DNA of 64,000 bases from Komarekiella atlantica HA4396-MV6. Lineage in GTDB: Bacteria > Cyanobacteriota > Cyanobacteriia > Cyanobacteriales > Nostocaceae. Both the position numbers and the translations under genes were made by a program. Location: assembly GCA_019359395.1 (NCBI GenBank), contig JAHHHK010000004.1, positions 124,001-188,000 on the forward strand, written 5' to 3'. Below, in pieces: positions 22,029 to 44,530 of this stretch; positions within the stretch are counted from its first letter, which is position 1, and each line of letters opens with the position of its first letter. Below the pieces are notes generated by a model. It saw only the letters and a list, made by a program, of their open reading frames with translations, was not told where the DNA came from and did not search any database.

Positions 22029-23588
22029 TTAACCTCTCTGACTTTCTCGTTTTTTAGAAATAGAAGAGTGATTAACAGAGTGATTAAAAGTTGATGGAAC
22101 AAAGACCAGAATTAATATTGCCCCAACTAAAAGAGCAATACTTGCGACTAGTACCGCAGTGTGAAGTCCTGAAACGAAGGCATTACCAAATGCTTGATTC
22201 CAAGTAAGTAAAGAAATATTAGTTGGGAGGTCACTAGTAACTTTAGCTCCACCGTGCAAAGCATCAGCGATCAGTCGCTCTTGAAGGTTGGAAGGCAAAT
22301 TCCAAGACGTTAGCGATCGCTTCAAGTTTGAAGTCAGCCATTGTGTAAGAATCGTTCCTTGTATAGCAATTCCCAAGACACCGCCTAGTCGGGTGCTCAT
22401 GTTAAGTACTGCTGAGGCAATTCCTGCTTTGCTAGAGGGTGCTGAATTCAAAGCTACTGTTACTAAAGGCGCAAGTGTCAAGCCACTGCCGAAGCCGGAG
22501 AAAACAAGGCTCCACAAGATGGCTCCATACTCGGTATTGACGTTGATTTGGATAAACAACATTGTCGCTATACTTGCCAATATCAGCCCCGTCGTAATGG
22601 CAAAGCGCCACCCAAGGCGAGCCGCAACCCATCCCGAACAAAGCGATGCGATTACAAAAGCTGCGTTCATTGGCAAGAAACGTATACCTGCTGCCGCTGC
22701 TGAATATCCCTGCACTTGCTGCAAGAATAAGCTGAAAATGAATAGCAAACTGATGATGGTGAAAAAGACCAAAATCGAGACGAAATTGACTACAGAAAAG
22801 GTTGGATTGCGAAATAAAGTTAGTGGCAGCATCGGATGGCTGCTGCGAGACTCAACAAATAAAAATGCTAGAAAACTAAGTCCAGCAATTGTTAGTAGCA
22901 ACCCAATAAGTGGCGATCGCCAAACTCCGTTGTTGCCCTCGGTAAGCGCATAGATGAGCGAGCCTAAAAAGATGATACTAAGTGCCAAACCTGGTAAATC
23001 AAGACTTTGCTTTTTGGGATTGATAACTTCTTGAACAACACGGGAAGATATGCCAAAAGCGATCGCACCGAGTGGGACATTCAGAAAGAAAATACTCTGC
23101 CAGCCGAAACTATCCACCAACAGTCCGCCGACCACAGGGCCCGCAACCAAGGCAAGCCCTGACACCGCAGACCAGATACCAATGGCTTTAGCTTGTTCCT
23201 TTGGCTTAGGGAATGTATGCGTCAGGATAGATAGAGAAGTTGGAATTAAGGCAGCAGCACCAATTCCCTGAAGAGTCCGACCAGCAATTAAAATCTCCAG
23301 ATTGGGAGCAAGACCACAAACTATAGAAGCGATCGTGAAGATGACCAATCCTGCAAGGAAAACTCGTTTGCGCCCGTAAATATCGCCCAATGTCCCACTC
23401 GTCAAGACTAGACTAGCGGCAGGTAAGGTGTAGGCGTTGAGAATCCACTGCAATCCCGACACACCAGAACCCAAACTTGTCTGAATTTTGGGAAGTGCGA
23501 CATTCATCACCGTGTCGTCGAGATTAGTCATAAACAATGCAAAACACATTGCCCCCAGCGTGATCGCTTTCACACGACTTTGATTCAT
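22029..23588 (-). CDS. DHA2-family MFS drug/lipid exporter
   Basis: A 519-residue, 14-helix major facilitator of the EmrB/QacA type. It has the N-terminal motif LDDTVMNVALPKI, GDIYGRKRVFL (motif A) between helices 2 and 3, and GPVVGGLL (motif C, antiporter signature) in helix 5. These proteins use the proton gradient to expel amphiphiles. It is the last gene of the long minus-strand cluster, 5 bases after the glycosyltransferase stop, so it most likely exports the cluster's product. Confidence 0.9.
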   Translation of the reverse strand: MNQSRVKAITLGAMCFALFMTNLDDTVMNVALPKIQTSLGSGVSGLQWILNAYTLPAASLVLTSGTLGDIYGRKRVFLAGLVIFTIASIVCGLAPNLEILIAGRTLQGIGAAALIPTSLSILTHTFPKPKEQAKAIGIWSAVSGLALVAGPVVGGLLVDSFGWQSIFFLNVPLGAIAFGISSRVVQEVINPKKQSLDLPGLALSIIFLGSLIYALTEGNNGVWRSPLIGLLLTIAGLSFLAFLFVESRSSHPMLPLTLFRNPTFSVVNFVSILVFFTIISLLFIFSLFLQQVQGYSAAAAGIRFLPMNAAFVIASLCSGWVAARLGWRFAITTGLILASIATMLFIQINVNTEYGAILWSLVFSGFGSGLTLAPLVTVALNSAPSSKAGIASAVLNMSTRLGGVLGIAIQGTILTQWLTSNLKRSLTSWNLPSNLQERLIADALHGGAKVTSDLPTNISLLTWNQAFGNAFVSGLHTAVLVASIALLVGAILILVFVPSTFNHSVNHSSISKKRESQRG

Positions 23589-23593
23589 CGCTG

Positions 23594-24826
23594 TTACTGC
23601 CTCTGCTGGAGTAATTCTGTCGCTGTTGTTTGAGCGTTAGTGGTGAGAATATTCTGCAAAATCTCAGGAATCTCAAACACGGCTTGATTGTTCACAGCGG
23701 CGACATTTGCACGATATTGAGCAAAATTTTCCGGCTGAAGAAACTTCTCAACTGCCTGATCAATATTCCGAAAACTGTTAATTACTATACCGACCTTTTT
23801 CTGTTGAATCCATTCGGTGTTGTATCGTTCATTAATTAATGTAGCAGCATTACGTTGCACAATCATTGGTAATTTCATTGCCAGCGCCTCGCTAATACTA
23901 ATACCACCTGGTTTACCAATAAAAAAATCGGCAAGGTGCATATAGTAAGGAATATCCTGAGTAAAGCTGGTGACAAACCTCTTTTGAGTACCTTGGCTTT
24001 CACGTAGAGTTACAGCTAGTTGTTCATTACGTCCGCAAATAAATATTAATTGTAGTTTTTGTTGAAAACACTCTAGACGCTTGGCAATTTCTAGCATTGC
24101 TTTCGAGCCGAAACCCCCGAATAATACAATCCCTGTCAGACAGTCTGGAGCTAAACCCAAACTTTCTCTTTCAATACGGCGTTCACTTGGAATTGGTTCA
24201 TAAAAACGCGGGTGAATAATCAACCCAGAAGTTTTGATAATTCGTTCTGGTTGCACTCCCAAAGAAGTAGCTTGCTCGACTGCTTTTTCAGTTGCACAGA
24301 CAATATAATTTCCGGTTTCTGGTTCGATATAAAAACCAGGAGGCGAATCGGCAAAATCTACACAAACGGTTACTAAAGGGGTATCTGGTTTACCCTTCTG
24401 TAAACTTTCCCATAGTCCTTTGTTATATAAAGGTAATAAAGAAATCACCATATCTGGCTGTTGCTGACGCCAATATTCTGCAAAGAACTCGACACCAGCA
24501 TCGTAATTCAGCTTAAAAAGTAGTCTATCTAGCCATAAAATTAGCGGGTGAAGCCATGTCCAACCGCTTTTTAGCATCCGGTTATACAATTCGCCGCCTG
24601 TAACTCCTGATAGCAGCTTGTAGATATCCACTATCTTTTGTTGTTGTGTGAGGCTTTCTACTAGTTCGTCTACATCAGTAACCCTGAGTTCCCAAGGTAG
24701 TTGTTGCTCCTCAACTATTGCCCGTATTGCGTGATAGGTGGCGTAATGCGCTCCACCATACCATGCGGTGACAACATTAATCTGAATTTTTTTGTTGGGA
24801 TGCGATCGCGATGAGAATGCTTTCAT
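23594..24826 (-). CDS. MGDG-synthase-like glycosyltransferase, duplicate A
   Basis: A GT28-type (GT-B fold) glycosyltransferase of 410 residues related to monogalactosyldiacylglycerol synthases. The N-terminal domain has an acceptor-side motif AWYGGAHYATYHAI (family form GGGHRxxAxAL). The C-terminal domain has VLFGGFGSKAMLEIAKRL, IFICGRNEQL and the donor-binding FIGKPGGISISEALAMKLP. From about residue 111 to the end it is identical to the copy at 25048; the N-terminal third differs at many positions. It would transfer a sugar, probably galactose-type, to a lipid acceptor at the membrane. Confidence 0.85.
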   Translation of the reverse strand: MKAFSSRSHPNKKIQINVVTAWYGGAHYATYHAIRAIVEEQQLPWELRVTDVDELVESLTQQQKIVDIYKLLSGVTGGELYNRMLKSGWTWLHPLILWLDRLLFKLNYDAGVEFFAEYWRQQQPDMVISLLPLYNKGLWESLQKGKPDTPLVTVCVDFADSPPGFYIEPETGNYIVCATEKAVEQATSLGVQPERIIKTSGLIIHPRFYEPIPSERRIERESLGLAPDCLTGIVLFGGFGSKAMLEIAKRLECFQQKLQLIFICGRNEQLAVTLRESQGTQKRFVTSFTQDIPYYMHLADFFIGKPGGISISEALAMKLPMIVQRNAATLINERYNTEWIQQKKVGIVINSFRNIDQAVEKFLQPENFAQYRANVAAVNNQAVFEIPEILQNILTTNAQTTATELLQQRQ

Positions 24827-24882
24827 TAGTATTCTTTATGGGGTGTTGTTTAGCAAATGTGATTTTTTGAATTTATCTTGGC

Positions 24883-25040
24883 TATTTCTTTCTCAAACAA
24901 TCCCAGCGCTCGAACCACAGCGGGCTTTTAGCACAAATTATTGTGAATTCTATCAATTGACTTTTTATTGATGAAAAAAAGTCTCTTACTCTAAAACTAA
25001 AATTTTCTTTCCATTAATACTTGGAGTGACTGAATTCATC
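24883..25040. pseudogene. Decayed pieces of glf, the GMC oxidoreductase and the MFS gene start
   Basis: Between the two glycosyltransferases, 24883-24922 matches 27246-27285 (3' end of glf) at 34 of 40 bases. Positions 24977-25013 match 29940-29976 (5' part of the GMC gene) at 34 of 37. About 25033-25040 resembles the MFS start region just downstream of the other copy. The order and strand fit a former tandem duplication of the segment from the exporter to the GMC gene, later reduced by deletion. Confidence 0.65.
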
Positions 25041-25047
25041 GCTGTCA

Positions 25048-26277
25048 CTACCTCTGCTGGAGTAATTCTGTTGCTGTTGTTTGAGCGTTAGTGGTGAGAA
25101 TATTCTGCAAAATCTCAGGAATTTCAAACACAGCTTGATTATTTACAGCGGCGACATTTGCACGATATTGAGCAAAATTTTCCGGCTGAAGAAACTTCTC
25201 AACTGCCTGATCAATATTCCGAAAACTGTTAATTACTATACCGACCTTTTTCTGTTGAATCCATTCGGTGTTGTATCGTTCATTAATTAATGTAGCAGCA
25301 TTACGTTGCACAATCATTGGTAATTTCATTGCCAGCGCCTCGCTAATACTAATACCACCTGGTTTACCAATAAAAAAATCGGCAAGGTGCATATAGTAAG
25401 GAATATCCTGAGTAAAGCTGGTGACAAACCTCTTTTGAGTACCTTGGCTTTCACGTAGAGTTACAGCTAGTTGTTCATTACGTCCGCAAATAAATATTAA
25501 TTGTAGTTTTTGTTGAAAACACTCTAGACGCTTGGCAATTTCTAGCATTGCTTTCGAGCCGAAACCCCCGAATAATACAATCCCTGTCAGACAGTCTGGA
25601 GCTAAACCCAAACTTTCTCTTTCAATACGGCGTTCACTTGGAATTGGTTCATAAAAACGCGGGTGAATAATCAACCCAGAAGTTTTGATAATTCGTTCTG
25701 GTTGCACTCCCAAAGAAGTAGCTTGCTCGACTGCTTTTTCAGTTGCACAGACAATATAATTTCCGGTTTCTGGTTCGATATAAAAACCAGGAGGCGAATC
25801 GGCAAAATCTACACAAACGGTTACTAAAGGGGTGTCTGGTTTACCCTTCTGTAAACTTTCCCATAGCCCTTTGTTATACAAAGGTAATAAAGAAATCACC
25901 ATATCTGGCTGTTGCTGACGCCAATATTCTGCAAAGAACTCGACACCAGCATCGTAATTCAGCTTAAAAAGTAGTTTATCTAGTCCTAAGATTAGCGGAT
26001 AAAGCCATGTCCACCCGCTTTTGAGCATTCGGTTATACAATTCGCCACCTGTAAATCCCGTTAGCAGCTTGTAGATATCCACTATCTTTTGTTGTTGGGC
26101 AAGGCTTGCTACTAGTTCATCTACATCAGTAACTCTGAGTTCCCAAGGCAATTGTTGCTGCTCAACTATTGTCCGTATTGCATGATAAATAGCATAATGC
26201 GCTCCACCATACCATGCGGTTACAACATTAATCAAAAACTTTTTTTCTGAAGATGAAGGTAATTGCGTTGTTTCCAT
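25048..26277 (-). CDS. MGDG-synthase-like glycosyltransferase, duplicate B
   Basis: This 409-residue protein is the paralogue of the glycosyltransferase at 23594, with the same GT-B motifs (AWYGGAHYAIYHAI; FGGFGSKAMLEIAKRL; GKPGGISISEALAMK). By eye the DNA of the two copies is identical for 689 bases (23694-24382 versus 25145-25833), while the first 330 bases of the genes differ clearly. That pattern suggests gene conversion. The divergent N-terminal acceptor domain implies that the two enzymes may use different acceptors with the same sugar donor. It follows the methyltransferase by 30 bases. Confidence 0.85.
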   Translation of the reverse strand: METTQLPSSSEKKFLINVVTAWYGGAHYAIYHAIRTIVEQQQLPWELRVTDVDELVASLAQQQKIVDIYKLLTGFTGGELYNRMLKSGWTWLYPLILGLDKLLFKLNYDAGVEFFAEYWRQQQPDMVISLLPLYNKGLWESLQKGKPDTPLVTVCVDFADSPPGFYIEPETGNYIVCATEKAVEQATSLGVQPERIIKTSGLIIHPRFYEPIPSERRIERESLGLAPDCLTGIVLFGGFGSKAMLEIAKRLECFQQKLQLIFICGRNEQLAVTLRESQGTQKRFVTSFTQDIPYYMHLADFFIGKPGGISISEALAMKLPMIVQRNAATLINERYNTEWIQQKKVGIVINSFRNIDQAVEKFLQPENFAQYRANVAAVNNQAVFEIPEILQNILTTNAQTTATELLQQR

Positions 26278-26307
26278 AAATACAAATAATTTCCGATAAA
26301 AATTGGA

Positions 26308-27234
26308 TTAAATACTTTTGCGGAACATGATCGCCATCCCTGAATGAAAACTAAGCCAATAGCCGAAAATCGCGTAAAAAAGGAATTTAAAAGAGGTCAA
26401 TGCTTTTCCGAGTTTGAATGGCTCAAAAACAGTGTCCACTGAGCCGTCGAAAAGGCTTACATACGCGCTCATAGCTCGACCATTGAAGCCAAACAAGGGT
26501 GTATCGTCAAATCTCCGATCAAAGAAATCTACAGGTTCCCATCCCTGACAACGCCCTAAATATTCAAGTGATTCACGTGTGTATATATGAAGGTGGTAGG
26601 GAACATGGACAAAGTTATAATCATCGGGTAAGTCGGGCCGATTGAGGTTGAGATTAGCGGCATCGGGTGTACCGATTAAAACATAACCACCAGGGGATAG
26701 CAGGCTGTTTAATTTGCTTAATAAAACATGAGGATCTTCAACATGTTCGATGACATCTTGACTCAAGATGTAATCAAATGACCTGCGCTGTAATGTTGTC
26801 AGATCACCAAAGCCGTCCTCTGGTGCGTAAGGATCATAACCGTAGGAATTGGCAAAGCCGTGTTGTCGTAGATATTGGACAAACAGACCATTAGCACCAC
26901 ACCCATAATCAAGTAATGAGTGAGTTTTGGAAAACCCATGCTTTGTCAACTGACGGCATAAGTTGCCATAGATAATTTGATATATCCATGTCAATTTAGC
27001 TTCAAAAAGAGGGAATTTTGCGTAGTAATGGTCTAAATTGACGACGTCTAGACAATGAATCGTCTGGCAATCAGGACATCGCCACACCTTGAATTTTTCG
27101 TCTATAAAGGCTCTGACATTACAAGGGAATGTAGAAAATGCAGATTCATCATTTGGATCGACACGATAATGACAAATCGAACACTCAAGGCGTTGCGTTA
27201 TTGTACTAGTGTGTTTGTGCTTCATTACCTTCAT
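26308..27234 (-). CDS. SAM-dependent methyltransferase with N-terminal zinc-ribbon-like cysteines
   Basis: A 308-residue class I methyltransferase. The N-terminus has two Cys pairs (CSIC and CPDC, residues about 18-56), a zinc-ribbon pattern seen in sugar and lipid C/O-methyltransferases of polysaccharide clusters. The SAM-binding motif is LLDYGCGANG (about 107-116), with LSQDVIEHVEDP as motif II/III. The C-terminal end is hydrophobic (FKFLFYAIFGYWLSF) and may touch the membrane. Its start overlaps the glf stop by 4 bases (ATGA), which implies translational coupling. The substrate is likely the sugar or lipid made by the cluster. Confidence 0.8.
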   Translation of the reverse strand: MKVMKHKHTSTITQRLECSICHYRVDPNDESAFSTFPCNVRAFIDEKFKVWRCPDCQTIHCLDVVNLDHYYAKFPLFEAKLTWIYQIIYGNLCRQLTKHGFSKTHSLLDYGCGANGLFVQYLRQHGFANSYGYDPYAPEDGFGDLTTLQRRSFDYILSQDVIEHVEDPHVLLSKLNSLLSPGGYVLIGTPDAANLNLNRPDLPDDYNFVHVPYHLHIYTRESLEYLGRCQGWEPVDFFDRRFDDTPLFGFNGRAMSAYVSLFDGSVDTVFEPFKLGKALTSFKFLFYAIFGYWLSFHSGMAIMFRKSI

Positions 27235-28517: not shown

Positions 28518-30056
28518 TCATCTTAGTCTTTCAAGTAAATGCTCTCCAACTCGCAAAGCGTTCGCCATAATTGTTAGCGTTGGGTTCAATGCAGCACTAG
28601 ACGGGAAAAATCCACCATCAACAACGTAAAGGTTATCAACATCATGAGTGCGGCAATTTATATTAAGTACAGAAGTTTTAGGGTCTTCACCAAAACGACA
28701 AGTTCCACACTGATGTCCAACGTCTTTCAAAGACATCTTTGTCGTAATATAAAGTGAGGATGGGCTAATTTTTTTATCTGAGTCAATAGACTTTAAAACT
28801 TGCTTCCAGCGTTTGATTAAACGATTAAATGCTTCTTCATTGTTATTTGTATACTCAAGAAAAATTTTCTGATCTTTGACACGTACGCGATTGTTAGGAT
28901 TTGGTAAATCTTCAGTCATCAGGAACCAACCGACTGCACGATTCGCCACTGCCTCATATATTGCGCTGGGTAGAGGTGGGCCATTAATGGCAGCTCTCTC
29001 TTTAGAGATATTGCCAAGTGATTGTACGTGTCCCATTGGGTAAGCAAAATCTTTTTCTCCCCAATAAAAATCATTAATGGCAAGCGTTTTAGGATAAACT
29101 ATGGGGTTAGGTTTGATAGTTAAAACTACGAGCGCCCCAATTTTATGCGCCATGTAATTGCATCCCACAAGATTAGAACTATTTGCTAATCCATTCGGAT
29201 GTTGATCATTGGCAGATTTGAGCAACAATACTGCTGAGTTGATTGCACCACAAGCGACAACAACTATATTCCCCGAAAACGTCTGGCAGTTGCCTGCAAT
29301 TTCTGCTTCTACTTTAGTAACCTCCCGACCCGATGCACTGGTATGTAAGCGCAATACTTTGGCTTCGGTCATCAAAGTCAGATTGGGATAAACCTTTGCT
29401 GGACGTACACCGTTAACGTCAGCATCAGCTTTGGCATCAATCAAACACGGGAAACCATCGCAAGTATCGCAACGAATACAAGCACTTAAAGAACGATTGA
29501 CTTCATTAAGCTTGATCCCAAGCGGCTGGTAAGAGGGATGAAAGCCTTTATCCTTTAGAGCATAGTTGATTTGTTGAATGTATGGTTCGTGGCTGATTGG
29601 TGGAAAGGGATAGTCTTCATTGCTTGGCGGTTCAGTTGGGTCAAAACCGCGCTGACCATGTACTTCGTATAGTCTTTCAGCTTGAGTGTAGTAAGGAGCA
29701 AAGTCCTGGTACTTCAATGGCCATTCTGGTGAAATACCATCTTTATGAATGACTTTTTCAAAGTCCCGTTCGCGGAATCTATATAGGGCGCTACCGTAAA
29801 ATTTGGTGTTACCACCAACGAAATAGTGTGTAAGTGGGTGTATTGCTTTGCCTTTTTTGTCGTACCACACTTCAGAAGTTCGATAGCGGTCTTTTTGAAC
29901 AACTTCTTTAGAATCCCAATTGGCTTTTTCTTTAGGAAGAAAAGTCCCTCGCTCTAAAACTAAAATTTTCTTTCCACTTGGTGCTAGTACATTTGCTAAA
30001 GTTCCACCACCTGCACCCGTACCAATAATGATGACATCGTAATGCTCTTTAACCAT
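28518..30056 (-). CDS. GMC-family FAD oxidoreductase
   Basis: A 512-residue glucose-methanol-choline-type oxidoreductase with the N-terminal FAD motif VIIIGTGAGGGTLANVLA and a GGNTKFYGSALYRFR substrate loop. A Cys-rich segment (CIRCDTCDGFPC, about 192-203) precedes a C-terminal GMC tail (HQCGTCRFG, then VVDGGFFPSSAALNPTLTIMA, with the catalytic His/Asn region). Such enzymes oxidise alcohols to aldehydes or ketones, often on sugars or lipids. In this cluster it probably oxidises a hydroxyl of the lipid or sugar. The gene lies 57 bases after the SDR gene. Confidence 0.88.
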   Translation of the reverse strand: MVKEHYDVIIIGTGAGGGTLANVLAPSGKKILVLERGTFLPKEKANWDSKEVVQKDRYRTSEVWYDKKGKAIHPLTHYFVGGNTKFYGSALYRFRERDFEKVIHKDGISPEWPLKYQDFAPYYTQAERLYEVHGQRGFDPTEPPSNEDYPFPPISHEPYIQQINYALKDKGFHPSYQPLGIKLNEVNRSLSACIRCDTCDGFPCLIDAKADADVNGVRPAKVYPNLTLMTEAKVLRLHTSASGREVTKVEAEIAGNCQTFSGNIVVVACGAINSAVLLLKSANDQHPNGLANSSNLVGCNYMAHKIGALVVLTIKPNPIVYPKTLAINDFYWGEKDFAYPMGHVQSLGNISKERAAINGPPLPSAIYEAVANRAVGWFLMTEDLPNPNNRVRVKDQKIFLEYTNNNEEAFNRLIKRWKQVLKSIDSDKKISPSSLYITTKMSLKDVGHQCGTCRFGEDPKTSVLNINCRTHDVDNLYVVDGGFFPSSAALNPTLTIMANALRVGEHLLERLR

Positions 30057-31056: not shown

Positions 31057-32211
31057 TCATACGGTAAGTGGTTTTTGAGCAGATCTTAAATGGGATTTTT
31101 TGAGGATTATTTCCAAATTTTCAACTACTTCAAATACAGCCCGATTGTTGTAATCTTTAACATTCGCCTGATAGCGAGCAAAGTTTTCTGGCTGGATGAG
31201 TTCTGTGACAGATTTGTTAATATCACGAAAATTATTAACTACAATACCGAACCCGTTATCTGCAAGCCAATCAGCGCTAGCCCGTTCTTGAAATAGTGTC
31301 GTGGTATTATTGCATTCTGTAATTACTGGCAGATTCATTGCTATAGCTTCGCTGACTCCGACACTACCCGGTTTGCCAATGAAAAAATCTGACAAATGCA
31401 TGTAGTAGGGAATTTGACTTGTAAAACCTTCCACAAATCTCGGTAAACGACTTTGAGTATTTCGCAAATCTCTGGCTAGTTTTTCATTACGTCCGCAGAT
31501 AAATATTAGTTGCAGATTTAGTGATGACTGTTCCAAACGCTGGGCAATTTCGAGCATTTCTTTTGAGCCATGACTGCCAAATATAACTAAGCCAGTGGGT
31601 AAATCTGGCTTTAGCCCTAAACGTTGTCTTTCAAATTGGCGATTGCTACTCACAGGCTCATAAAATCGAGGATGGATTACTATGCCTGAAGTCCGATAAA
31701 TTCTTTCATCTGGATAACCACAAGATTGCGCTTGCTTAACTGTTTGTTGGGAAGGACAGATGAGAAATTGCTCTTGAGCTTCTATCCAGAAGTTAGGAGG
31801 ACAATCGGCAAAATCTGTAATTGAAGTCACAAAGGGAATCCCTGGTAGTTCCGCCTGTAAGCTTTCGTAAAGCACTCGGTTTACCAGTGGAAGTAATGAA
31901 ACCACTAAATCGGGCTGATACTTGCGCCAATACTTTCTCAAGAGATTTCGCCAAGCAGAATGACGCAAGCGAATTTGTAACTTGAATAAAGGAACTGACA
32001 AGGGATCATTAATAATTTTTGCCCACTTTTTTTTCAATACGAAATTGTTATATATGTACTGGGGCTGAGTTGTTCCAAATACTTCTTTGAAAACCTCGAC
32101 TATTTGAACTTCCCAAGGTAAGTTTCGCTTTTTAATAACTTCTATTAAAGCATTGGCAGTACTGCGGTGGCCTGCGCCCATATCATAGATCATGAAATAT
32201 ACTTTTTTCAT
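31057..32211 (-). CDS. MGDG-synthase-like glycosyltransferase, third copy
   Basis: A 384-residue GT28-type enzyme with the family N-terminal motif MGAGHRSTANAL at residues 12-23, which is closer to the MGDG-synthase consensus than in the other two copies. The C-terminal donor site is GKPGSVGVSEAIAMNLP. It is about half identical to the duplicates at 23594 and 25048 but clearly separate. It lies between the two SDR genes. Three related transferases in one cluster suggest successive sugar additions to the product or different acceptors. Confidence 0.88.
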   Translation of the reverse strand: MKKVYFMIYDMGAGHRSTANALIEVIKKRNLPWEVQIVEVFKEVFGTTQPQYIYNNFVLKKKWAKIINDPLSVPLFKLQIRLRHSAWRNLLRKYWRKYQPDLVVSLLPLVNRVLYESLQAELPGIPFVTSITDFADCPPNFWIEAQEQFLICPSQQTVKQAQSCGYPDERIYRTSGIVIHPRFYEPVSSNRQFERQRLGLKPDLPTGLVIFGSHGSKEMLEIAQRLEQSSLNLQLIFICGRNEKLARDLRNTQSRLPRFVEGFTSQIPYYMHLSDFFIGKPGSVGVSEAIAMNLPVITECNNTTTLFQERASADWLADNGFGIVVNNFRDINKSVTELIQPENFARYQANVKDYNNRAVFEVVENLEIILKKSHLRSAQKPLTV

Positions 32212-33207: not shown

Positions 33208-33216
33208 GTTCAGTTA

Positions 33217-35082: not shown

Positions 35083-35149
35083 AAATAAAATCAAAATTCA
35101 AAAATGGTTTTTACAGTGCGGTCAATTTATTTCAAAATGGCTAAGATGT

Positions 35150-35464
35150 TCAAATTTCAAACATTTCTAATTCCGAAGCTTTTAATTCTTCAGCTAAATA
35201 TTGAGACAACGATTCAATATTGGGATAATTCCACATTATCAGTGGAGATAACTGCAATCCAAAATGTTGTTTTCCTAGATTAGCAATATTCATTGTCTGT
35301 ACTGAATCTAAACCGTAACTGTCGAAAGGTAATCGTGTATCGATTTCATCAGGTTCAGTTCCTATCTGTTCAGCAATTTGACAAGTCAGCCAATCTTGCA
35401 TATCTTCTGCTGTCATCGATTTATTACTGATTTGTTGATCCAAAATTTGTTCACCCATTAGCAT
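35150..35464 (-). CDS. Acyl carrier protein, second
   Basis: A 104-residue stand-alone carrier protein with the phosphopantetheine attachment motif DSYGLDSVQTMN (Ser54). It follows the KS gene by 28 bases. The KS protein has no carrier domain of its own, so this ACP is the natural partner for its product. It is moderately related to the ACP at 39592. Confidence 0.9.
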   Translation of the reverse strand: MLMGEQILDQQISNKSMTAEDMQDWLTCQIAEQIGTEPDEIDTRLPFDSYGLDSVQTMNIANLGKQHFGLQLSPLIMWNYPNIESLSQYLAEELKASELEMFEI

Positions 35465-35492: not shown

Positions 35493-37940
35493 CTATTTAC
35501 TAGCTGTATTTGTTGAGCTAATACTTCTATCTAATGTGGTTACTTCTTGGTGTGTATTTTCAATCGTTTTAAACCAATAACGCTGTCGCTGAAAAGGATA
35601 AGTTGGTAGTTGGAGACGACAATGAGGATAATCTCGGTGAAAGCTAGACCAGTCTATTACTGCTCCACGAACAAATAATTCTCCTAAACTGTGGAGTATT
35701 TCCAGCCAATCCTCTTGTCCTTGATGCAAGCTAGATAAGCAAACTCCTACTTCCTCTGGTATGGAAGTTAATTTTGAGGCGATCGCTAAAAATACATGAT
35801 CACCTGCTAAAGTCTCTATACCAGCAGTCAACTTCCCTGGCTGCCGCAAATGACAGCACCAATATTCGGCAGTAGCGATTTCCTTTGTTGTCAGTTCTCC
35901 AGGAAGACTGGAAATTAGAGGAATTTGTGGTTGAGAGTAGTTAACTTCCTTGGCGATTTCTGCAAAAGCCTCAACTATCCTTTCCGGCTGGAGAGAAGTT
36001 TGCATTAAACGACTGCGTTCTGTAACTAGCTTCAGAGCATCTTCGAGGGTAAACACGCCAGCTATGCAAGCAGCAACATATTCTCCCACGCCATAACCCG
36101 TTACTACTTTGGGTTTGATGCCCCACGATTGCCATAATTCGGCTAAGGCATACTCTATAGCAAACAGAGCAACTTGATCTAATACAGAACTCTCTTCGGT
36201 AGCTGGATACAGAATCTCAAGGAGAGACTTTTCTAAGTAAGGTTGAAGAATTTGAGCGCAGCGATCAATGGTTTTACGAAAGGTGGGCTGAGTATTATAG
36301 AGTAGCCATCCGGTGGAGCGAGATTCTAGCCCCTCCCCAGGAAAGAAAAAGGCAACTTTTGGACGCTTTCTGCCCTTAACCTTGCCCTTTAACAATCCAG
36401 TAGTTTCCTTTTGAGCGATAAAAGCACTTAGCTGCTGGCATAACTGCACGACGGATTCAGTCACGATACAAAGACGATGCTCAAAATGTGTCCGTCCTGT
36501 ATTGGCACTAAAGCAGACATCTGCCAGCGATATATCAGGATTAGACGCTAAAAAGTCTTGATACCTTTGTGCTAGTTCTCGTAGAGCCAAATCACTTTTT
36601 GCTGAGAGTGTGATTAAATGGCCGCGACGTTGCACATCCATAGGTACTGGCGCTGATACTGGTGCTTCTTCTAAGATGACGTGAGCATTGGTGCCTCCAA
36701 AACCAAATGCACTTACACCAGCCAGACGACTCTGTTTCCCACGATACCATTTCTGAATCTCCTTTGGAATTGAAAATGAGGTATTTTCCAGAGAAATATA
36801 GGGATTAAGCTGCGTCAAATGCAAGTGAGGAGGGATTTCCTCATGTTGCAGCGAAAGGACTACTTTGATCAAAGCAGAAATCCCAGCAGCAGCTTCCAAA
36901 TGACCAATATTTGTCTTGACTGAGCCAATCCAACAGGGTCTATCTGGCTCGCGGTCTTCCATGAGTGCGGCTTTTAAGGCTTTAAACTCGATTGCGTCTC
37001 CGATGGATGTGCCAACGGCGTGAGCGTCAATGTAGCTAATTTCTGCCGGTCGCACTTTGCCATTTTCTAAGGCTTGGCGAATTACCGCCTGTTGAGCGAG
37101 TCCGTTAGGTGCAGTAAGACTATTACTCAACCCATCTTGGTTAACTGCTGAACCTCTGATGAGTGCGAGAATATTGTCTTTGTCTCTCACAGCATCACTG
37201 AGGCGCTTGAGTACGACTACGCCACAGCCTTCTCCTCTGACATAACCATCAGCAGTTGCATCAAAAGACTTACACTGACCGCTAGATGACAGCAGGCGCG
37301 TCTGAGATGAGGAAATAGTCGAATCCGGCGATAAAATTAAGTTTACTCCTCCAGCTAGGCATAAATTCGATTCTCTGTTTCGTAAACTTTGGCAGGCTAA
37401 GTGGACTGTCACCAGAGACGAGGAACAAGCAGTATCTATTGCCATACTGGGGCCACGCAAATCCAGCAAATAGGATAAGCGATTGGCTGTAATGCAGGGA
37501 GTCGTTCCCGTGCCACTATGTAATCCGATGCAAGAGAAATTTTTATAAAGAAGCCGATGATAATCGATGGTACATAGACCGATAAATACTCCTGTCTGGC
37601 TGCTAGCTAGACTAGTTGGTACTATGCCAGCATTTTCTAAAGCTTCCCAAGCTACTTCTAAAAATAGTCTTTGTTGGGGGTCTGTATGCTCGACTTCATC
37701 AGGAGAAATTCCAAAAAAGTCAGCGTCGAACAAATCCACCTCTTCTAGAAAACCACCCCAACGGGTACTCATTTTTCCTGGAGTGTTGGGATTAGGATCG
37801 TAGAAAGCATCAATATCCCAGCGTTCTTTTGGTACGGATGCGATCGCATCTTTCCCATTACGCAATAACTTCCAGAAGGATTCGGGATTCTTCGCTTTGG
37901 GAAAACGGCAACCAATGCCAATTATTGCTATAGGTTCCAT
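35493..37940 (-). CDS. Ketosynthase with degenerate acyltransferase domain
   Basis: An 815-residue type I PKS fragment. The KS domain (about 1-425) has the catalytic DTACSSS (Cys172), His307 in DAHAVGT (family form EAHGTGT) and His347 in [10 protein letters not shown]. The AT-like region (about 527-700) is damaged: the GHSxGE nucleophile motif reads GYGVGE, so Gly617 replaces Ser. About 85 residues carrying the HAFH motif are missing after RSRLMQ. No DH, KR, ER or ACP domain is present. The KS may use a separate AT, or transfer rather than elongate. The ATG at 37940 is preferred over TTG at 37970. Confidence 0.88.
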
Positions 37941-37978
37941 CTGAATTGTTTGCCCAATAGTATTAATCAATGCTGACT

Positions 37979-38094: not shown

Positions 38095-39513
38095 TTAGCT
38101 CTCCTGCTCCATGACCGATTGGGAGAACTCTTTAAAGGTCTTAGTATTCTTTTGGAGTGCTTTGCTAATCGAGCCTCCGGCAGCCATAATACCCATTTCG
38201 CGGTTTATTTTCCATTGATAATCTAGGCGACTAAATAGTCTTTGCATCAATTCCAGGAGGCTTTGATGATATTTGAGTCCGACATGATAGCCTTCGTGTT
38301 CTTGACAGAAACACTTTTCCATCCAATCTAGGGCTTCTTTGGTTTCCATCCCAAATAGAGGAGATTTCAAGAGTTTGTAGTAAAAGACCATTAACATGGG
38401 GTCATCGTAGACGCAGCGACCGGGTAACACTCCAGAAAGACCGCTCAAAAGGTTGCGTTGCGCCATATAAATCGCCAAACCAGATACAAATTTCTCGTAA
38501 GCAGTTGGCTTCGGGAAATCCTTATACATATCTTTGGCGATAGTTTGGGAAATCGTGGTGTGGAAAGCTTCGTCTAATAAGTGGTAATAGGATACAGCTG
38601 TTGGGGTGGGGATATACTCGCCCTTTTGCTCTAACTCTCGGAAATATCTGACATAAGGATATTCTTGGTTTTTGAGAATCGCATTAGCTGTATAGCGCAA
38701 AGAATAATACTGACACGCCATAAACGGCGACATTCCCCAGTGAACAGTGAAGAAACGTAACCAATGACGTGGTGCGATTCGCCCTCCTAGACCATCAGCT
38801 GGTGCGGGGATTGGCTCGCCTCTTTGTTCTAACTCTTGCAAATATCGAGAGTAATACTGTTTTTTATCACTAAGCATCGTCTTAGCGATCGCATTTAAGG
38901 CATTGTCTCGGTATTCCGAAAATGTTGAATCACCATGACCTGATGAGGTGAAAAACTCCCGCACAGGATGGGGAATTAGGGGTCTAAGCCAGCTATTACT
39001 CTCTTTATCTGATTTGCCATAAAGGGAATTTCCCAATATGGTTTTACCAACTATGGCCATTTTCGTTTTGTAACCAATCTTTTGAAAGGTACGAATGTGG
39101 TAGCTTTCTTGATCAGTTTCAAAATCTAGTTCGTTACACAGTGTTTCGTAACCACCAAAGGCGCGAAAAACGCCAGATGTTACCATGTTGTAAATGCTTG
39201 TAGTGGCTTCGCTAACCGCAGTATGGTTATAGTTGCCAACCCAATAAAGATGATTAAGCGCTAGTTTCTGTGAGGGAGAAATGGCATCGTAGAGGGGTGT
39301 GCCATAAAGAAGTGAGAGTTCGGGAGGACTCCAGTAATAATTACTGTTATTAGCGTAGTTAAACTCATTACCTAAGTCTCTGAGTTTCTCTGTGTAGTCT
39401 GAGTTTGTGTTGTTCTGAAAAGTTTTCTCGATGATTATAGAATGCTTTGTTCCCTGTGCTTCTGACAGCGTTGAAGCTGAAATTTGGGGATCTAGAGGTT
39501 TTCCAACTACCAT
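38095..39513 (-). CDS. AurF/CylC-like dimetal-carboxylate oxygenase or halogenase
   Basis: A 472-residue protein with the ligand pattern of the AurF/CmlI diiron family: Glu102, E136xxH139, and H311xxxE315xxH318. The second-helix glutamate of AurF was not located with confidence. CylC-type halogenases of cyanobacteria belong to this group and chlorinate unactivated carbons of ACP-bound fatty acids. They are typically next to a fatty acyl-AMP ligase and an ACP, as here. I infer action on the acyl chain held by the ACP at 39592; oxygenation and halogenation are both possible. A strong AGGAG site precedes the ATG. The length agrees with CylC. Confidence 0.75.
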   Translation of the reverse strand: MVVGKPLDPQISASTLSEAQGTKHSIIIEKTFQNNTNSDYTEKLRDLGNEFNYANNSNYYWSPPELSLLYGTPLYDAISPSQKLALNHLYWVGNYNHTAVSEATTSIYNMVTSGVFRAFGGYETLCNELDFETDQESYHIRTFQKIGYKTKMAIVGKTILGNSLYGKSDKESNSWLRPLIPHPVREFFTSSGHGDSTFSEYRDNALNAIAKTMLSDKKQYYSRYLQELEQRGEPIPAPADGLGGRIAPRHWLRFFTVHWGMSPFMACQYYSLRYTANAILKNQEYPYVRYFRELEQKGEYIPTPTAVSYYHLLDEAFHTTISQTIAKDMYKDFPKPTAYEKFVSGLAIYMAQRNLLSGLSGVLPGRCVYDDPMLMVFYYKLLKSPLFGMETKEALDWMEKCFCQEHEGYHVGLKYHQSLLELMQRLFSRLDYQWKINREMGIMAAGGSISKALQKNTKTFKEFSQSVMEQES

Positions 39514-39591: not shown

Positions 39592-39918
39592 TTAACTTTT
39601 AGTTCTTAACTGCGAGCTTAAATGCTGAACTAAAGCCTGAACAGTTGGGTAATCATACATGAGGGTTGGATCAATTTCTCTTCCTAGCCAGTCTTCGAGA
39701 TCGCCTGTCAAACCAACTGCTGCTGAGGAATCTAAACCATAGCGGTCAAATGGGATCGTAACGTCAATTTCATCTGAATCTACTTCCAGTAAGTTAGCTA
39801 CATAGGAAACTATCCAAGCCTGAATTTCTGATGCTGTTGGTATTGGCTTGGATGTAGCGACTTTGCTAGTTTCTAAAACCGGACTTATGGTGCTCACTTC
39901 TAGATTCTGCATTTCCAT
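39592..39918 (-). CDS. Acyl carrier protein, first (FAAL partner)
   Basis: A 108-residue carrier protein with a flexible N-terminus (1-28) and the phosphopantetheine site RYGLDSSAAVGL (Ser64). The motif and the EDWLGREIDPTLMYDYP segment match the carrier proteins that pair with fatty acyl-AMP ligases (JamC, CylB types). It is placed between the desaturase and the dimetal-enzyme genes, so the acyl chain would be modified while tethered here. Confidence 0.92.
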   Translation of the reverse strand: MEMQNLEVSTISPVLETSKVATSKPIPTASEIQAWIVSYVANLLEVDSDEIDVTIPFDRYGLDSSAAVGLTGDLEDWLGREIDPTLMYDYPTVQALVQHLSSQLRTKS

Positions 39919-40055
39919 CGTTTAATCCTTCGCAAGTATTAATGAACATGTATGCTTCCTGCAATAAAATTGCCGCAGGTTCAGCTAGGTAACTTTTTTC
40001 GTCTCAATCATCTTTGCTGTAGGAATATTGACATTCCAGATCAAGCCAAAAAACT

Positions 40056-40949
40056 CTAGAAAACGGATGCCCAAGTACCTATATCAATTTGCCACCATTC
40101 CCATCCAGCAACGGCTGAGTTAGGAAAAGCATGATGGTTGTTATGCCATGATTGTCCGCAACTGAAGATAGCTAGCCAGATATTGTTTGTACTGCGATCA
40201 TTAGTATTAAAAGGGCGATCGCCGTAAAGATGGCAAATTGAGTTAGTAGCGGAAATAATTTGCTGTCCTAGGAAAATGCGGACGAACCCGCCCCACATCA
40301 ATCCTTGTAAAGCTCCTATCCATGTTTCTGTTATCACCCCGCCTATAACAGTTGGAATCGCCAGACCCAGAAATACCCAAACGAGGTATAGTTGGTTGAC
40401 TTTGCTAATCACAGAATCTCGAAGTATGTCTTTGGCAAAGAGTACAGAATTTGGCACTTTGCCTGCAAAAGTCCATGCTATGTGAGAGTGCCATAGACCT
40501 TGTAGCCATCCGACAATTCCTTTTTCATGCAGATTTGGCGAATGAGGATCACCAGGCTGATCGGTGTACTGGTGATGACGTCGATGATGACCTACCCAGT
40601 AAATTACTCCACCTTGAGCAGCCATAGAACCAAGAATTGCCAGGATAACTCGGACAGGAGTATTAGCTTGAAAAGCCCGGTGCGAAAAGTAACGGTGAAA
40701 ACCTACTTCAATTCCCAGTGTGGTTAAAGCAAGCATACTCAACATTAAACACACTTCCAGCCAACCAATCTTCAAGTACCAAAGTAATCCAATTGCTACT
40801 ACAGTTACTAAACAAGGAATCAAGAATGTAGCTAAGGCTAACCGCCTGTAAATAGTTTGTAGGTAATCACTTACGATTATGATCTTCTGCCCCTGATGCA
40901 CTCTCAAAAGAAGCTTCTCTTGAGATATGTTATCTGGCTGTGTTGACAT
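40056..40949 (-). CDS. Membrane acyl-lipid or acyl-ACP desaturase (JamB-like position)
   Basis: A 297-residue di-iron membrane desaturase of the Delta-9/stearoyl-CoA type. It has three histidine boxes: H85RYFSH90, a HHRRHH box (121-126) and H269NNHH273, with hydrophobic helices between (about 38-58, 64-82, 187-205). It could introduce a double bond, or a triple bond as in JamB acetylenases. Sequence alone does not separate the two. The gene lies between the acyl-AMP ligase and the ACP, the same order as jamABC. That placement suggests an ACP-bound substrate rather than membrane lipid. Confidence 0.88.
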   Translation of the reverse strand: MSTQPDNISQEKLLLRVHQGQKIIIVSDYLQTIYRRLALATFLIPCLVTVVAIGLLWYLKIGWLEVCLMLSMLALTTLGIEVGFHRYFSHRAFQANTPVRVILAILGSMAAQGGVIYWVGHHRRHHQYTDQPGDPHSPNLHEKGIVGWLQGLWHSHIAWTFAGKVPNSVLFAKDILRDSVISKVNQLYLVWVFLGLAIPTVIGGVITETWIGALQGLMWGGFVRIFLGQQIISATNSICHLYGDRPFNTNDRSTNNIWLAIFSCGQSWHNNHHAFPNSAVAGWEWWQIDIGTWASVF

Positions 40950-40983
40950 TAGTTAGTCTGTTCTCGGATAGTGTGATTCTTAT

Positions 40984-42837: not shown

Positions 42838-43609
42838 TTAATGCACCTCTTTGGCATTACAGTTATTCCTACAAGATGGAGTTGCCTACCTAGTCTTATG
42901 ACAAAGCAATACAACTATCTTGATAGATACCCTTTTCTCGATCTGTTGTTTGAATTTGATCTACTACTTACAAAGTTTGATTCAGGCTGCATTTAGTCAG
43001 GTACTATCCAAGCAAACTGCTAAATTACATATCTATAGCCGGGATAATTATAACTTCCAGCCTTGAAAATAGATTGATATTCCTACAAGGTTCTAACTAC
43101 ATCAATCCTGGTAGTTGTAAAGTAAAAATATTGGGCGTTGCTGAGTTACAGCCACAATCCAGATGTAGAGACACGATATATTGCTTTTCTACAAAGGTTT
43201 TTCATACTCTAAATCAGCAACACCAAATAAATATTGAACCCCAAATTACAATTGCTAGAGCAGCCTAAATTAGTTTAATCCTCATTGCTGTGTTGAATCA
43301 GATTTAATTTTTGAATGATTATCAACAGCTACTACAAACTTAGGCAAATTTGCTCCGTAGGTTTAGGAGTAGTGGAATTTGCTCTCAAACTTTTTGGTAC
43401 TTGTAGATTAAAATTCTTGGTACACAGTAGAAAGCCGAACCTGCTAATCAGGTACTTTCTATGCGTTGTGCTTACCTCAAAGGATCACTCATTATTTAAT
43501 ATTTCCACCAAAGTAGAATGATTCCTAACTTGCATAAGAACCTTAAGAAAATTCAGAAGTATTTAACACTACTTGATTTATACAGTATTTGAAAGTTGTT
43601 TTCCATCAC
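42838..43609. other. Gene-free region upstream of the biosynthetic cluster
   Basis: This 772-base stretch between the response regulator and the FAAL gene probably carries the cluster promoter. Several short plus-strand open frames have no coding character. No recognisable operator was found. Its length and position next to a regulator gene make it the first place to look for control sites. Confidence 0.5.
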
Positions 43610-44530
43610 TTATCCTTTGCTAAAAGTAGCAATTCCTTCTTTTTGTGTCTGATTAGGCTGATTTCGATGCTTTCTTCTCCAAGCGTGGGGAGTTGTTTTG
43701 TGATGTTGGCGAAACTGACGAAAGAAATGAGCTACATTTTGATAGCCTATTTTCACCGAAATCGTTTCTACTGTTTCGTCAGTTTTCAATAGCATATTAC
43801 GAGCCGCTGTCATCCGATACTCAATAATCCAGCTTTGGACAGTTTGCCCTGTTTGGCGTCGCACTAGATTGGTGAGGTAAGTTGAAGAGTAACCAACTTT
43901 CAGAGCTACGTCGCTGAGGGTAATTTGGTGGTAATAATTTTCCTCAATAAAGCTAAATACTTCGTCCAACAATGAGTTTGACGGAAATGTAGACTTAAGA
44001 GTTGTTGGTTCTAGAATGTCAGCTAGTAATGGTTTTGTAAATGGTTGAAATTGATGAATCTCACAGGCAGCGTAATACTTTTTGAGAATGGTTCTTTTTT
44101 CCAAACAGGCTGCGATCGCATTCAACAATTCCTCTACAGTACAGGGTTTAGTAAGATAGTCATCCGCTCCCAATTCCATACCTTTACGAATCTCATACCG
44201 AGCTTCTTTAGTAGTTACAAAAATCAAGGGGATCATTGCTGTAGAAGGGTTTTGGCGCAGCATGGTTAAGACACTATAACCATCCAATTTGGGAAGCGAA
44301 ATTTCACTTATGATCAAATCAGGTAGCTCTTGCTGTGCTTGTTGAAAACCAATAAGACCGTTTTCAGCGTCTATCGTATAGAAACCTTCTGCTTTCAAAC
44401 ATTTTAGGAAAAAATTTTTGGTTTCTACTTCAGATTCAATTACCAAAATTTTTTTCCCATTCAAAAATCGTCTATTTATCATGGTAAGTAAGAGTTGTGT
44501 GGACTCGTCAATCGCCTTACTTTTTACCAA
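43610..44530 (-). CDS. AraC-type response regulator with Glu at the phosphorylation site
   Basis: A 306-residue transcription factor with a receiver domain (about 27-145) and a C-terminal AraC helix-turn-helix pair (about 190-290, FIEENYYHQITLSDVALKVG and ISVKIGYQNVAHFFRQF). The receiver phosphoacceptor motif reads DLIISEISLPKLDG, so Glu76 replaces Asp. The usual acidic pair near the N-terminus is ESE (32-34), while Lys128 is kept. Glu at this site can mimic the phosphorylated state, so the protein may be active without a kinase. It lies upstream of the cluster on the same strand and is the best candidate for its regulator. Confidence 0.88.
   Translation of the reverse strand: MVKSKAIDESTQLLLTMINRRFLNGKKILVIESEVETKNFFLKCLKAEGFYTIDAENGLIGFQQAQQELPDLIISEISLPKLDGYSVLTMLRQNPSTAMIPLIFVTTKEARYEIRKGMELGADDYLTKPCTVEELLNAIAACLEKRTILKKYYAACEIHQFQPFTKPLLADILEPTTLKSTFPSNSLLDEVFSFIEENYYHQITLSDVALKVGYSSTYLTNLVRRQTGQTVQSWIIEYRMTAARNMLLKTDETVETISVKIGYQNVAHFFRQFRQHHKTTPHAWRRKHRNQPNQTQKEGIATFSKG

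Follow-up and report, generated by a model that had tools for sequence, protein, structure and literature searches.

A CylC/CylK-type glycolipid gene cluster in Komarekiella atlantica and its ACP-docked protein, a candidate for chain release

Kinship with nostochloroside-type clusters

Among the CylC/CylK glycolipid clusters, ngl (pks3) of Nostoc punctiforme ATCC 29133 has been characterised as the nostochloroside cluster (PMC10849952). According to that paper, nostochloroside A has a C21 chain derived from C16, with oxygen at C1, C2 and C6, and the transformations leading to the odd chain and the diol were called uncharacterised by its authors. The CylC family is marked by the motifs QExxH and HxxDExxH. 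In a section of a second paper (PMC8406957), type I PKS clusters (chlorosphaerolactylate/columbamide/microginin/puwainaphycin-like) have a fatty acyl-AMP ligase (FAAL) and an ACP before the CylC homologue and a type I PKS after it, as does the locus analyzed here. However, these clusters are described in that section without Glf, CylK or the docking protein discussed below, all three of which are encoded here.

We analyzed a window of 64,000 nucleotides from K. atlantica HA4396-MV6. The minus strand carries 17 consecutive genes between 22029 and 44530, of which 16 (22029-42837) are biosynthetic or transport genes with intergenic gaps of -4 to 221 bp; a response regulator gene lies 772 bp upstream of this block. 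Pfam/NCBIfam searches recognized within the block a FAAL, a desaturase, two ACPs, an AurF-like dimetal protein, a KS with a partial AT, two SDRs, a GMC oxidoreductase, a methyltransferase, three MGDG-synthase-like transferases and a DHA2/EmrB exporter, in agreement with the initial annotation, which had named these families on the minus strand with short gaps. Its boundary included the 16 genes but left out the CylK homologue at 19681-21936. This homologue makes the kinship with ngl visible, and the initial view of an unrecognized combination is not supported; judging from the encoded proteins, the cluster is an uncharacterised variant of the CylC/CylK glycolipid clusters, which include ngl (PMC10849952). 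The genes are as follows.

19681..21936, minus strand: CylK/NglO-type alkyl-chloride-using enzyme (SBBP beta-propeller), 751 aa; matches PDB CylK 7fh8
22029..23588, minus strand: MFS exporter, DHA2/EmrB family; TIGR00711, 294.3 bits, cut-off 230.2
23594..24826, minus strand: GT1, MGDG-synthase/GT28-like glycosyltransferase; PF06925 and PF04101 over cut-off
25048..26277, minus strand: GT2, recent duplicate of GT1; 1170/1230 aligned bases identical
26308..27234, minus strand: SAM methyltransferase; PF13489
27231..28367, minus strand: Glf, a UDP-galactopyranose mutase that would supply UDP-galactofuranose; matches the equivalog TIGR00031 with 434.5 bits against a cut-off of 303.75
28518..30056, minus strand: GMC oxidoreductase; PF05199, PF00732
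30114..30947, minus strand: SDR1, short-chain dehydrogenase; PF00106, motifs YSASK and TGASGGIG
31057..32211, minus strand: GT3, MGDG-synthase-like glycosyltransferase; PF06925
32341..33207, minus strand: SDR2, ketoreductase-like SDR; PF00106
33217..35094, minus strand: ACP2-docked protein; TubC_N at residues 7-58 (Pfam 2.2e-20), predicted C-terminal class II aldolase-like domain at about 370-612
35150..35464, minus strand: ACP2, tail ...ELEMFEI; PF00550
35493..37970, minus strand: KS with altered HGTGT (HAVGT) and dead, truncated AT (GYGVGEY); motif reading and AT profile
38095..39513, minus strand: CylC-family dimetal halogenase candidate; QESYH at 135, HLLDEAFH at 311
39592..39918, minus strand: ACP1, putative carrier for the FAAL-loaded fatty acid; PF00550
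40056..40949, minus strand: membrane fatty-acid desaturase; PF00487
40984..42837, minus strand: FAAL; PF00501 over cut-off
43610..44530, minus strand: response regulator, AraC-type HTH; PF00072, PF12833

The product of 19681-21936 matches CylK (7fh8) with an E-value of 4.6e-106 over residues 22-649, and its R32, E406 and Y440 align with R105, D440 and Y473 of CylK, so that the Arg, the Tyr and an acidic base are all present. A Glu at the base position is also found in NglO (PMC10849952), and the CylK homologue of an ngl-type locus (L085/L086) has the residue spacings of NglO (344/32; R84, E428, Y460). Both CylC motifs occur in the window protein, which scores 24.0 bits against the AurF Pfam model (cut-off 29.6) and gave no match in a PDB sequence search; the motifs were present in 27/27 ORFs scanned, these ORFs having been chosen partly by the same motifs. 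We regard this protein as a halogenase candidate and the lipid as probably halogenated. The window combines a FAAL, an ACP and this CylC-type protein, and the earlier view that one pathway leads to a lipid that is activated, glycosylated and probably halogenated is supported.

Beyond these genes, ngl shares with the window a KS with an inactivating mutation, a glycosyltransferase, a methylated sugar and a Glu-type CylK homologue, and a sugar epimerase is named for ngl (PMC10849952). The ACP-docking protein-SDR core is also found in the ngl-type locus L085/L086; from this one orthologous-looking locus we predict that ngl has a docking protein too. Relatives of the window methyltransferase (62-63%) occur in L086. 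The modules of L085/L086 read KS-AT-KR-ACP, KS-AT-DH-ER-KR-ACP and KS*-ACP. Reductive type I PKS modules of this kind, with KR, DH and ER domains upstream of the terminal KS*, occur in L085 and L010 but not in the window, where one KS with a dead AT leads us to expect no C6 hydroxyl. Conversely, the desaturase, Glf, three GT28-type transferases, GMC oxidoreductase and SDR1 distinguish the window from the ngl-type locus, which has a GT4-type transferase instead and carries a discrete thioesterase. Resorcinol-forming logic belongs to the cylindrocyclophane and bartoloside pathways and is absent from the window cluster; CylC-type halogenation and a CylK-family enzyme are described for those pathways and have counterparts here.

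The order ACP1, CylC, KS, ACP2, docking protein, SDR2, GT3, Glf is kept in all nine loci from other strains (L001-L009), with Glf present only as a fragment in L005, which is more than chance. Where matched in related clusters, Glf is 86-98% identical, and the GMC oxidoreductase and SDR1 form an optional pair across the gene maps. Relatives of the response regulator (93-95%) lie beside the cluster in L001-L003, making it a possible pathway regulator. Promoter- and terminator-like patterns in the window were no more numerous than in shuffled controls and lent no support to an operon structure, and neither Rfam, at its gathering threshold, nor a tRNA search yielded a match in the 64-kb window.

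Chain start and the terminal KS

The best fatty-acid-AMP-ligase model scores 476 bits against the FAAL, below its curated cut-off of 775. The order FAAL-desaturase-ACP is that of JamABC, a terminal-alkyne cassette, and would be compatible with an alkynyl polyketide as the product. However, the desaturase has no match in the related clusters L005, L007 and L009, nor beside the ngl-type FAAL in L085, and the presence of CylK and Glf agrees with a chlorinated glycolipid, so that we consider an alkyne pathway highly improbable.

The window AT reads GYGVGEY, compared with GHSVGEY in active modules, and its match to the AT profile of 319 positions is confined to positions 2-123; by these features it is dead. 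Across the loci compared, the terminal KS is non-canonical in 19/19 rows and lacks a working AT in 19/19, a His-to-Gln change being present in the terminal module in 10/10 modular-type rows, whereas upstream modules are canonical in 5/5 rows (4 distinct genes). The window KS may still elongate, since its catalytic His is kept (HAVGT). Over the KS part, its identity is 71-73% with two first-module KS, 63% with a third and 58-60% with terminal KS; when a KS/AT recombinant was considered, the AT remnant did not discriminate between first-module and terminal origin.

The docking protein and its predicted fold

The docking protein probably starts at an ATG four codons inside the called ORF. Pfam assigns it a TubC_N domain and no other; this domain is found at the N terminus of 22/22 members and matched the AerJ docking domain (8aqq). 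Among 217 genomes of the family, 110 carry the gene at full length. An ACP2-like match lies upstream of it on the same strand in 76/76 loci, and we propose that the C-terminal tail of ACP2 is a short motif docking to the TubC_N domain. The tail pattern, which was written after the tails had been seen, occurs in 46/47 recovered ACP2 and in 7/3643 other ORFs. In all 22 unique loci of the CylC/CylK type, the docking-protein gene is followed immediately downstream by SDR2. The other three (L019, L064, L075) of the 25 unique loci that have CylC or CylK near the gene contain hgl-like PKS genes and no adjacent SDR2, which speaks against the proposal made below. The docking protein is the conserved core. 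Homologues of CylC and CylK both occur within 40 kb of 32 of 124 full-length docking-protein places, CylC alone at one and CylK alone at none. Also counting against the proposal, no docking protein lies within 40 kb of 16 of the 53 CylK places.

Foldseek searches with predicted models pointed to class II aldolases for the C-terminal region: RhaD (E 2.1e-3, probability 1.00), a viral class II aldolase (E 3.1e-4, probability 1.00) and, for the full-length model, AraD as the first match without a docking domain (E 0.045). These searches used two models with mean pLDDT of 70 and 80, two of the three sharing one model, and although class II aldolases led all three, the superpositions were loose (rmsd 7.8-10.8, TM 0.20-0.48). 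The metal site of class II aldolases such as RhaD and AraD is formed by three His ligands, accompanied by a catalytic acid. A D...HxH...H pattern (D497, H524, H526, H583) is invariant in 57/57 docking-protein sequences, and a D/E...HxH...H pattern is likewise shared by RhaD, AraD and FucA. Based on these models, the C-terminal domain probably has a class II aldolase fold.

At the level of sequence, an identification as a class II aldolase fails. Probabilities in hhalign comparisons stayed below 1% throughout. The targets were 20 cyanobacterial aldolases, left after two of the 22 found in 30 loci had been removed because of their length; a mixed set of 12 sequences, among them AraD, FucA, RhaD, YgbL and UlaF of E. 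coli; and each of these E. coli proteins alone. Pfam found no aldolase domain in any of 22 members, and profile searches of the PDB gave the docking domain and chance matches but no aldolase. The docking protein also differs from class II aldolases in the N-terminal part that precedes the domain, about 370 residues in total with the docking domain included; its middle region (about 60-370) had no fold match.

Chain release and the link to hgl-like islands

The absence of a classical release domain, stated in the initial annotation, was confirmed by Pfam/NCBIfam: no PF00975 thioesterase, the family searched, is encoded on the contig of the window, and ten PF00975 matches lie elsewhere in the genome. 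Of the two release candidates named earlier, the docking protein gained comparative support. Release by a glycosyltransferase was rejected, because the ngl-type locus has a GT4-type enzyme beside the same ACP-docking protein-SDR core: the core is constant while the adjacent transferase changes type.

We estimate a probability of roughly 55% that the cluster at 19681-42837 makes a nostochloroside-type halogenated glycolipid whose chain is released by the docking protein through C-C chemistry. Gene content, motifs, conservation, the ACP-tail/docking pattern and the predicted aldolase-like fold were computed; from them we infer the following reactions and contacts, above all the release chemistry. 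ACP1 would receive a fatty acid from FAAL; this chain may gain a double bond through the desaturase and would be chlorinated by the CylC-type enzyme. The KS, with no working AT and an altered HGTGT, would pass the chain to ACP2, probably without elongation. The docking protein would bind ACP2 through the C-terminal tail of the ACP, and the aldolase-like, probably metal-dependent domain would free the chain by C-C chemistry as a 1-hydroxy-2-ketone that has gained one carbon relative to the fatty acid. This hydroxymethyl ketone would then be the substrate of SDR2, which would reduce it to a 1,2-diol for glycosylation, and the GMC oxidoreductase with SDR1 may invert a hydroxyl. The MGDG-synthase-like transferases would add hexose, one probably galactofuranose supplied through Glf, the methyltransferase would cap the sugar, and the MFS protein would export the glycolipid. 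The CylK homologue would displace chloride, linking chains. This reading also predicts a halogen-dependent, possibly galactofuranose-bearing glycolipid.

If this proposal is true, release one carbon longer followed by SDR reduction would account for both the C21 length and the vicinal diol of the nostochlorosides, for which the docking protein is a candidate enzyme. Starting from C16, two modules of the L085/L086 type would give C20 with a hydroxyl at C6 and CH2 at C4; by our deduction, the last, HGTGT-defective module would have to account for one oxygenated carbon. Alternatively, within the same cluster type, the terminal KS could elongate once more and the aldolase-like domain remove a carbon by retro-aldol cleavage or decarboxylation. 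Class II aldolases catalyze cleavage as readily as synthesis, the family member YgbL of E. coli is annotated as a putative decarboxylase, and the window KS keeps its catalytic His. Cleavage was also favoured by the nostochloroside authors (PMC10849952). We nevertheless regard carbon removal as unlikely, given the terminal modules without working AT and their His-to-Gln changes. Moreover, cleavage of a malonyl-derived beta-ketoacyl chain would yield a methyl ketone rather than an oxygenated C1 unless C1 were hydroxylated, and no hydroxylase was recognized among the assigned ORFs of L085/L086.

The docking protein might instead be an accessory epimerase, dehydratase or scaffold of an ngl-like cluster, with release by a housekeeping thioesterase or to another acceptor. 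This would suit AraD, which is an epimerase, as well as the thioesterases elsewhere in the genome and the discrete one of the ngl-type locus. Hydrolysis, however, would give an even-chain acid, at odds with a C21 diol glycoside, and the docking gene also follows an ACP in hgl-like islands, where a thioester reductase was found only in L026 among 21 unique fetched loci. An accessory role therefore appears distinctly improbable to us.

These loci were assigned by gene content to the hgl-like islands of heterocystous cyanobacteria in PMC11804610, which reports such islands even in a strain that lost heterocysts. As in the window, the same docking protein comes after an ACP whose C-terminal tail is of the same kind; unlike the window, the islands have a PUFA-synthase-like PKS, and an hglE-type PKS with a PfaD-type protein was not found at the window locus. 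SDR2 adjoins the docking protein in 6/21 of these loci and a PapA-like acyltransferase is present in 13/21, while FAAL had no match in their fetched flanks. The main text of PMC11804610 does not use the word "docking", and the family was apparently not one of the 19 query genes used there, because hgl-like islands match only seven of them. No publication linking the docking protein to these clusters was found among the matches listed from open-licence PMC literature.

Applied to both cluster types, release by the docking-protein family would be a candidate explanation for how hgl-like island products leave their synthase, one gene family linking this question with that of the nostochloroside chain. 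Tentatively, the family may found a new class of polyketide chain release, in which an ACP-docked, class II aldolase-like metalloenzyme, shared as terminator by chlorinated-glycolipid clusters and hgl-like islands, would form a C-C bond to a one-carbon hydroxymethyl equivalent (e.g., from a ketose or hydroxy-acid donor), followed by SDR reduction and glycosylation or PapA-like esterification. The genome itself holds a second copy of the docking-protein gene (G000:C77), which lies in an hgl-like locus.

Gene content, extent and type of the cluster

The initial annotation had ended the cluster at its exporter. The run of 16 genes stands, and the lower boundary has been moved because a CylK homologue adjoins the exporter; the cluster is thus set at 19681-42837 in this 7.78-Mb genome.

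772 bp upstream of the 16-gene run: response regulator with an AraC-type HTH
42837 down to 22029, minus strand: 16 genes, for FAAL, desaturase, ACP1, CylC-type protein, KS, ACP2, docking protein, SDR2, GT3, SDR1, GMC, Glf, methyltransferase, GT2, GT1 and MFS exporter
33217-35094, minus strand: the docking protein of this run
19681-21936, next gene downstream, 92 bp from the MFS exporter: CylK homologue with seven beta-propeller repeats

The product of 19681-21936 matches solved CylK structures (E 4.6e-106), and its R32, E406 and Y440 align with CylK Arg105, Asp440 and Tyr473. Its base position is Glu, the same state as reported for NglO (PMC10849952), the homologue in the nostochloroside (ngl) cluster of Nostoc punctiforme ATCC 29133. 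The dimetal protein contains both QExxH and HxxDExxH, the motifs given for CylC-family halogenases (PMC12101540). Both were also present in 27/27 ORFs of the collected loci, where ORFs were chosen partly by the same motifs and some loci duplicate one place.

The combination of genes was not recognised initially. FAAL, ACP and CylC have already been described together in type I PKS clusters (PMC8406957), and nostochlorosides, chlorinated glycolipids whose palmitate-derived C21 chain bears 6-O-methylgulose and which NglO oligomerises, were found from the combination of FAAL, CylC, CylK and glycosyltransferase (PMC10849952). The window cluster is a variant of this known type, and its gene combination is therefore less isolated than supposed. 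The contig of Desmonostoc geniculatum that holds loci L085/L086, also the source of L010, carries the following genes:

L085/L086: reverse-strand thioesterase, FAAL, ACP, CylC, KS-AT-KR-ACP, KS-AT-DH-ER-KR-ACP, KS (His-to-Gln in HGTGT) with ACP, docking protein, SDR, GT4 transferase, two methyltransferases, CylK

R60, E404 and Y436 of this CylK have spacings of 344 and 32, as do NglO R84, E428 and Y460, and the ngl figure legend lists KR, DH and ER domains together with a KS inactivated by a point mutation (PMC10849952). The locus looks like the ngl orthologue. The window cluster is a shorter relative whose methyltransferase family also occurs in this locus; it has one KS and no reductive module, and Glf with GT28-type transferases where the GT4 transferase stands.

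GT1 and GT2 are identical at 1170 of 1230 aligned bases, which marks them as a recent duplication. A 300-nt block at their 3' ends (23583-23882 and 25034-25333) is 98% identical, as against 95% gene-wide, as would fit either gene conversion or a duplication of recent date. Two cytochrome P450 genes (5510-6889, 7754-9115) and a phosphoketolase-like gene (3122-5386) lie ~11-16 kb from the cluster.

The terminal KS and the nostochloroside chain

Terminal KS domains were aligned from 19 CylC/CylK-type loci, leaving out L002 (same reading) and loci with an incomplete terminal KS. The HGTGT position reads HAVGT in nine window-type rows (single KS, no reductive modules) and VQGT(G/S)T in ten modular-type rows (extra PKS modules). 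The terminal AT has lost its serine in 17/19 and is absent in 2/19. Both HGTGT and GHSVGEY are intact in the five rows taken from upstream modules, which represent four distinct genes. Loss of the HGTGT His stops decarboxylative elongation and spares transacylation; non-elongation is less secure for the window-type KS because this His is kept. The window KS domain (35493-37970) matches two first-module KS of related clusters at 71-73%, compared with 58-60% for terminal KS, and the cluster may have lost a module by recombination.

With L085/L010 standing in for ngl, the nostochloroside chain can be read backwards. Palmitate C7 becomes nostochloroside C12 (PMC10849952); therefore, palmitate C1 is C6, which bears the OH (module with KR). 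By deduction, the next module (DH, ER, KR) would make C4 a CH2 and give a C20 chain whose thioester carbon is C2; C1 and C2 are both oxygenated, and C1 would lie one carbon beyond this C20 chain. C21H44O3 plus chlorination, hexosylation and O-methylation gives C28H55ClO8, the published formula. Since C1 is surplus and oxygenated, the KS*-ACP-docking protein-SDR stage should account for one oxygenated carbon. The alternative put forward by the authors of the nostochloroside study is that a larger product is cleaved (PMC10849952).

Distribution and partners of the docking protein

A docking-protein search returned 26 loci, including Aliterella, a Pleurocapsales strain, uncultured Pleurocapsa and a Leptolyngbyaceae bin; the nearest named strains are Nostoc and Komarekiella. 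A layout with one KS, like that of the window, recurs in L001-L009; additional PKS modules are present in L010, L011, L013 and L014. The full-length protein (E below 1e-290; weaker rows cover the docking domain alone) occurs at 124 places in 110 of 217 family genomes, and its C-terminal domain in 32 of 386 phylum-wide genomes (30 of the same family, two of the same order). Within 40 kb of these 124 places, CylC (E up to 1e-40) and CylK (E up to 1e-60) homologues were both found at 32, CylC only at one, CylK only at none, and neither at 91. CylK is not tied to the docking protein, since 16/53 CylK places have none within 40 kb.

Many of the 91 places with neither homologue carry a KR/DH protein, a KS-AT protein, a PfaD-type protein, an ACP and the docking protein, and look like hgl-like (PUFA-synthase-like PKS) islands. 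According to PMC11804610, such islands are strongly conserved, their product is unknown and they are the sole island in Raphidiopsis brookii D9; its main text does not contain the word 'docking'. The 82 loci with a docking-protein gene gave 57 unique sequences: 22 of CylC/CylK type, 21 hgl-like, three mixed and 11 short or other. In their tree, the window-type group (11 rows, 100/100) stands beside the modular-type group (13 rows, 100/99), jointly at 98/98, each group including one row of unassigned context.

Comparison of these loci identifies the docking protein as their conserved core. Its TubC_N docking domain is N-terminal in 22/22 aligned proteins, and its gene is preceded by an ACP2-like match of the same orientation in 76/76 loci (L001-L076, several duplicating one place), with an intervening gene in L062, L065 and L071. 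From 52 loci scanned, 47 ACP frames were recovered. The tail E-x-[FILV]-[EQH]-[IVLM], a pattern drawn up after the tails were inspected, occurs in 46 of them (34 of 35 distinct tails) versus 7 of 3643 other ORFs. Short C-terminal motifs pair with TubC-type docking domains, and the ACP tail looks like such a motif.

SDR2 immediately follows the docking protein in 22/22 CylC/CylK loci, at gaps of -3 to 276 bp, and in 0/3 mixed loci. It is adjacent in 6/21 hgl-like loci, two of the six (L028, L037) being too short to exclude an acyltransferase. A PapA/condensation-like acyltransferase is found in 13/21 hgl-like loci; L026 and L062 have neither partner. As PapA proteins esterify diols, both partners would suit a ketone or diol product.

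Several loci depart from these layouts. L015, L018 and L020 (Scytonema, Iningainema) have the ACP-docking protein pair and a PapA-like gene, with no PfaD-type gene and no PKS of the tested kinds within 10 kb. CylC and CylK homologues stand beside an hgl-like PKS and the pair in L019 (Fischerella thermalis PCC 7521), L064 and L075, which suggests halogenated hgl-like lipids. Another full-length copy of the docking protein is encoded in the window's genome (L057, G000:C77:217705-219564). The hgl-like island around it also holds a PapA-like acyltransferase and a methyltransferase sharing 66% identity with that of the window, and an SDR2-like gene lies ~9 kb away. In Mojavia pulchra (L005, ~15348-15940), the matches to Glf and the exporter beyond SDR1, on its downstream side, were fragments only, which gives the impression of a decayed cluster end.

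Fold of the docking protein and a proposed release step

The lack of an evident release domain, raised initially, is a real question that appears common to ngl-type clusters and hgl-like islands; a thioester reductase was seen in only one of 21 unique hgl-like loci (L026, Pleurocapsales LEGE 10410). The docking protein is now a specific candidate. Its whole AlphaFold2 model (mean pLDDT 70) has as first fold match, after docking domains and docking-bearing entries, AraD (L-ribulose-5-phosphate 4-epimerase; E 0.045, prob 0.92, TM 0.20/0.48, rmsd 7.8). For the C-terminal part modelled alone (mean pLDDT 80.5, pTM 0.81), the top four matches are all E. coli RhaD (E 2.1e-3 to 5.1e-3, prob 0.97-1.00, TM 0.36-0.44, rmsd 10.2-10.8) and the following match has E 0.24 and prob 0.10; a viral library gave a class II aldolase (E 3.1e-4, prob 1.00, TM 0.33/0.30, rmsd 8.7). 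These superpositions are loose, and none of the profile methods used found an aldolase relation. PSYD497, H524-F-H526 and PDH583G are invariant in 57/57 docking proteins and coincide with RhaD PTSE, HCH and FHG, motifs with ligand roles in that enzyme. We regard a class II aldolase-like fold for the C-terminal domain as probable (roughly 70%) and an enzymatic role as a hypothesis.

In the proposed pathway, FAAL would load ACP1, and the desaturase (unmatched in L005, L007 and L009) and CylC-type enzyme would modify the bound chain, which the KS would hand to ACP2. The docked aldolase-like domain could couple the thioester carbonyl to a hydroxymethyl-donating enediolate, freeing the chain as a hydroxymethyl ketone, which SDR2 would reduce to a 1,2-diol. 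Hydroxyl inversion by oxidation-reduction would suit SDR1 and GMC, which occur together in L001-L004, L008, L011 and L096 (the cluster of genome G043); both are missing in L006, L007, L009 and L013, and SDR1 is alone in L005. Sugars would be added by GT3 and GT1/GT2 with Glf, and chloride displaced by the CylK homologue. Since no C6-OH is expected in the window product, the CylK homologue would use an oxygen of a diol, a sugar or a carboxylate as its nucleophile.
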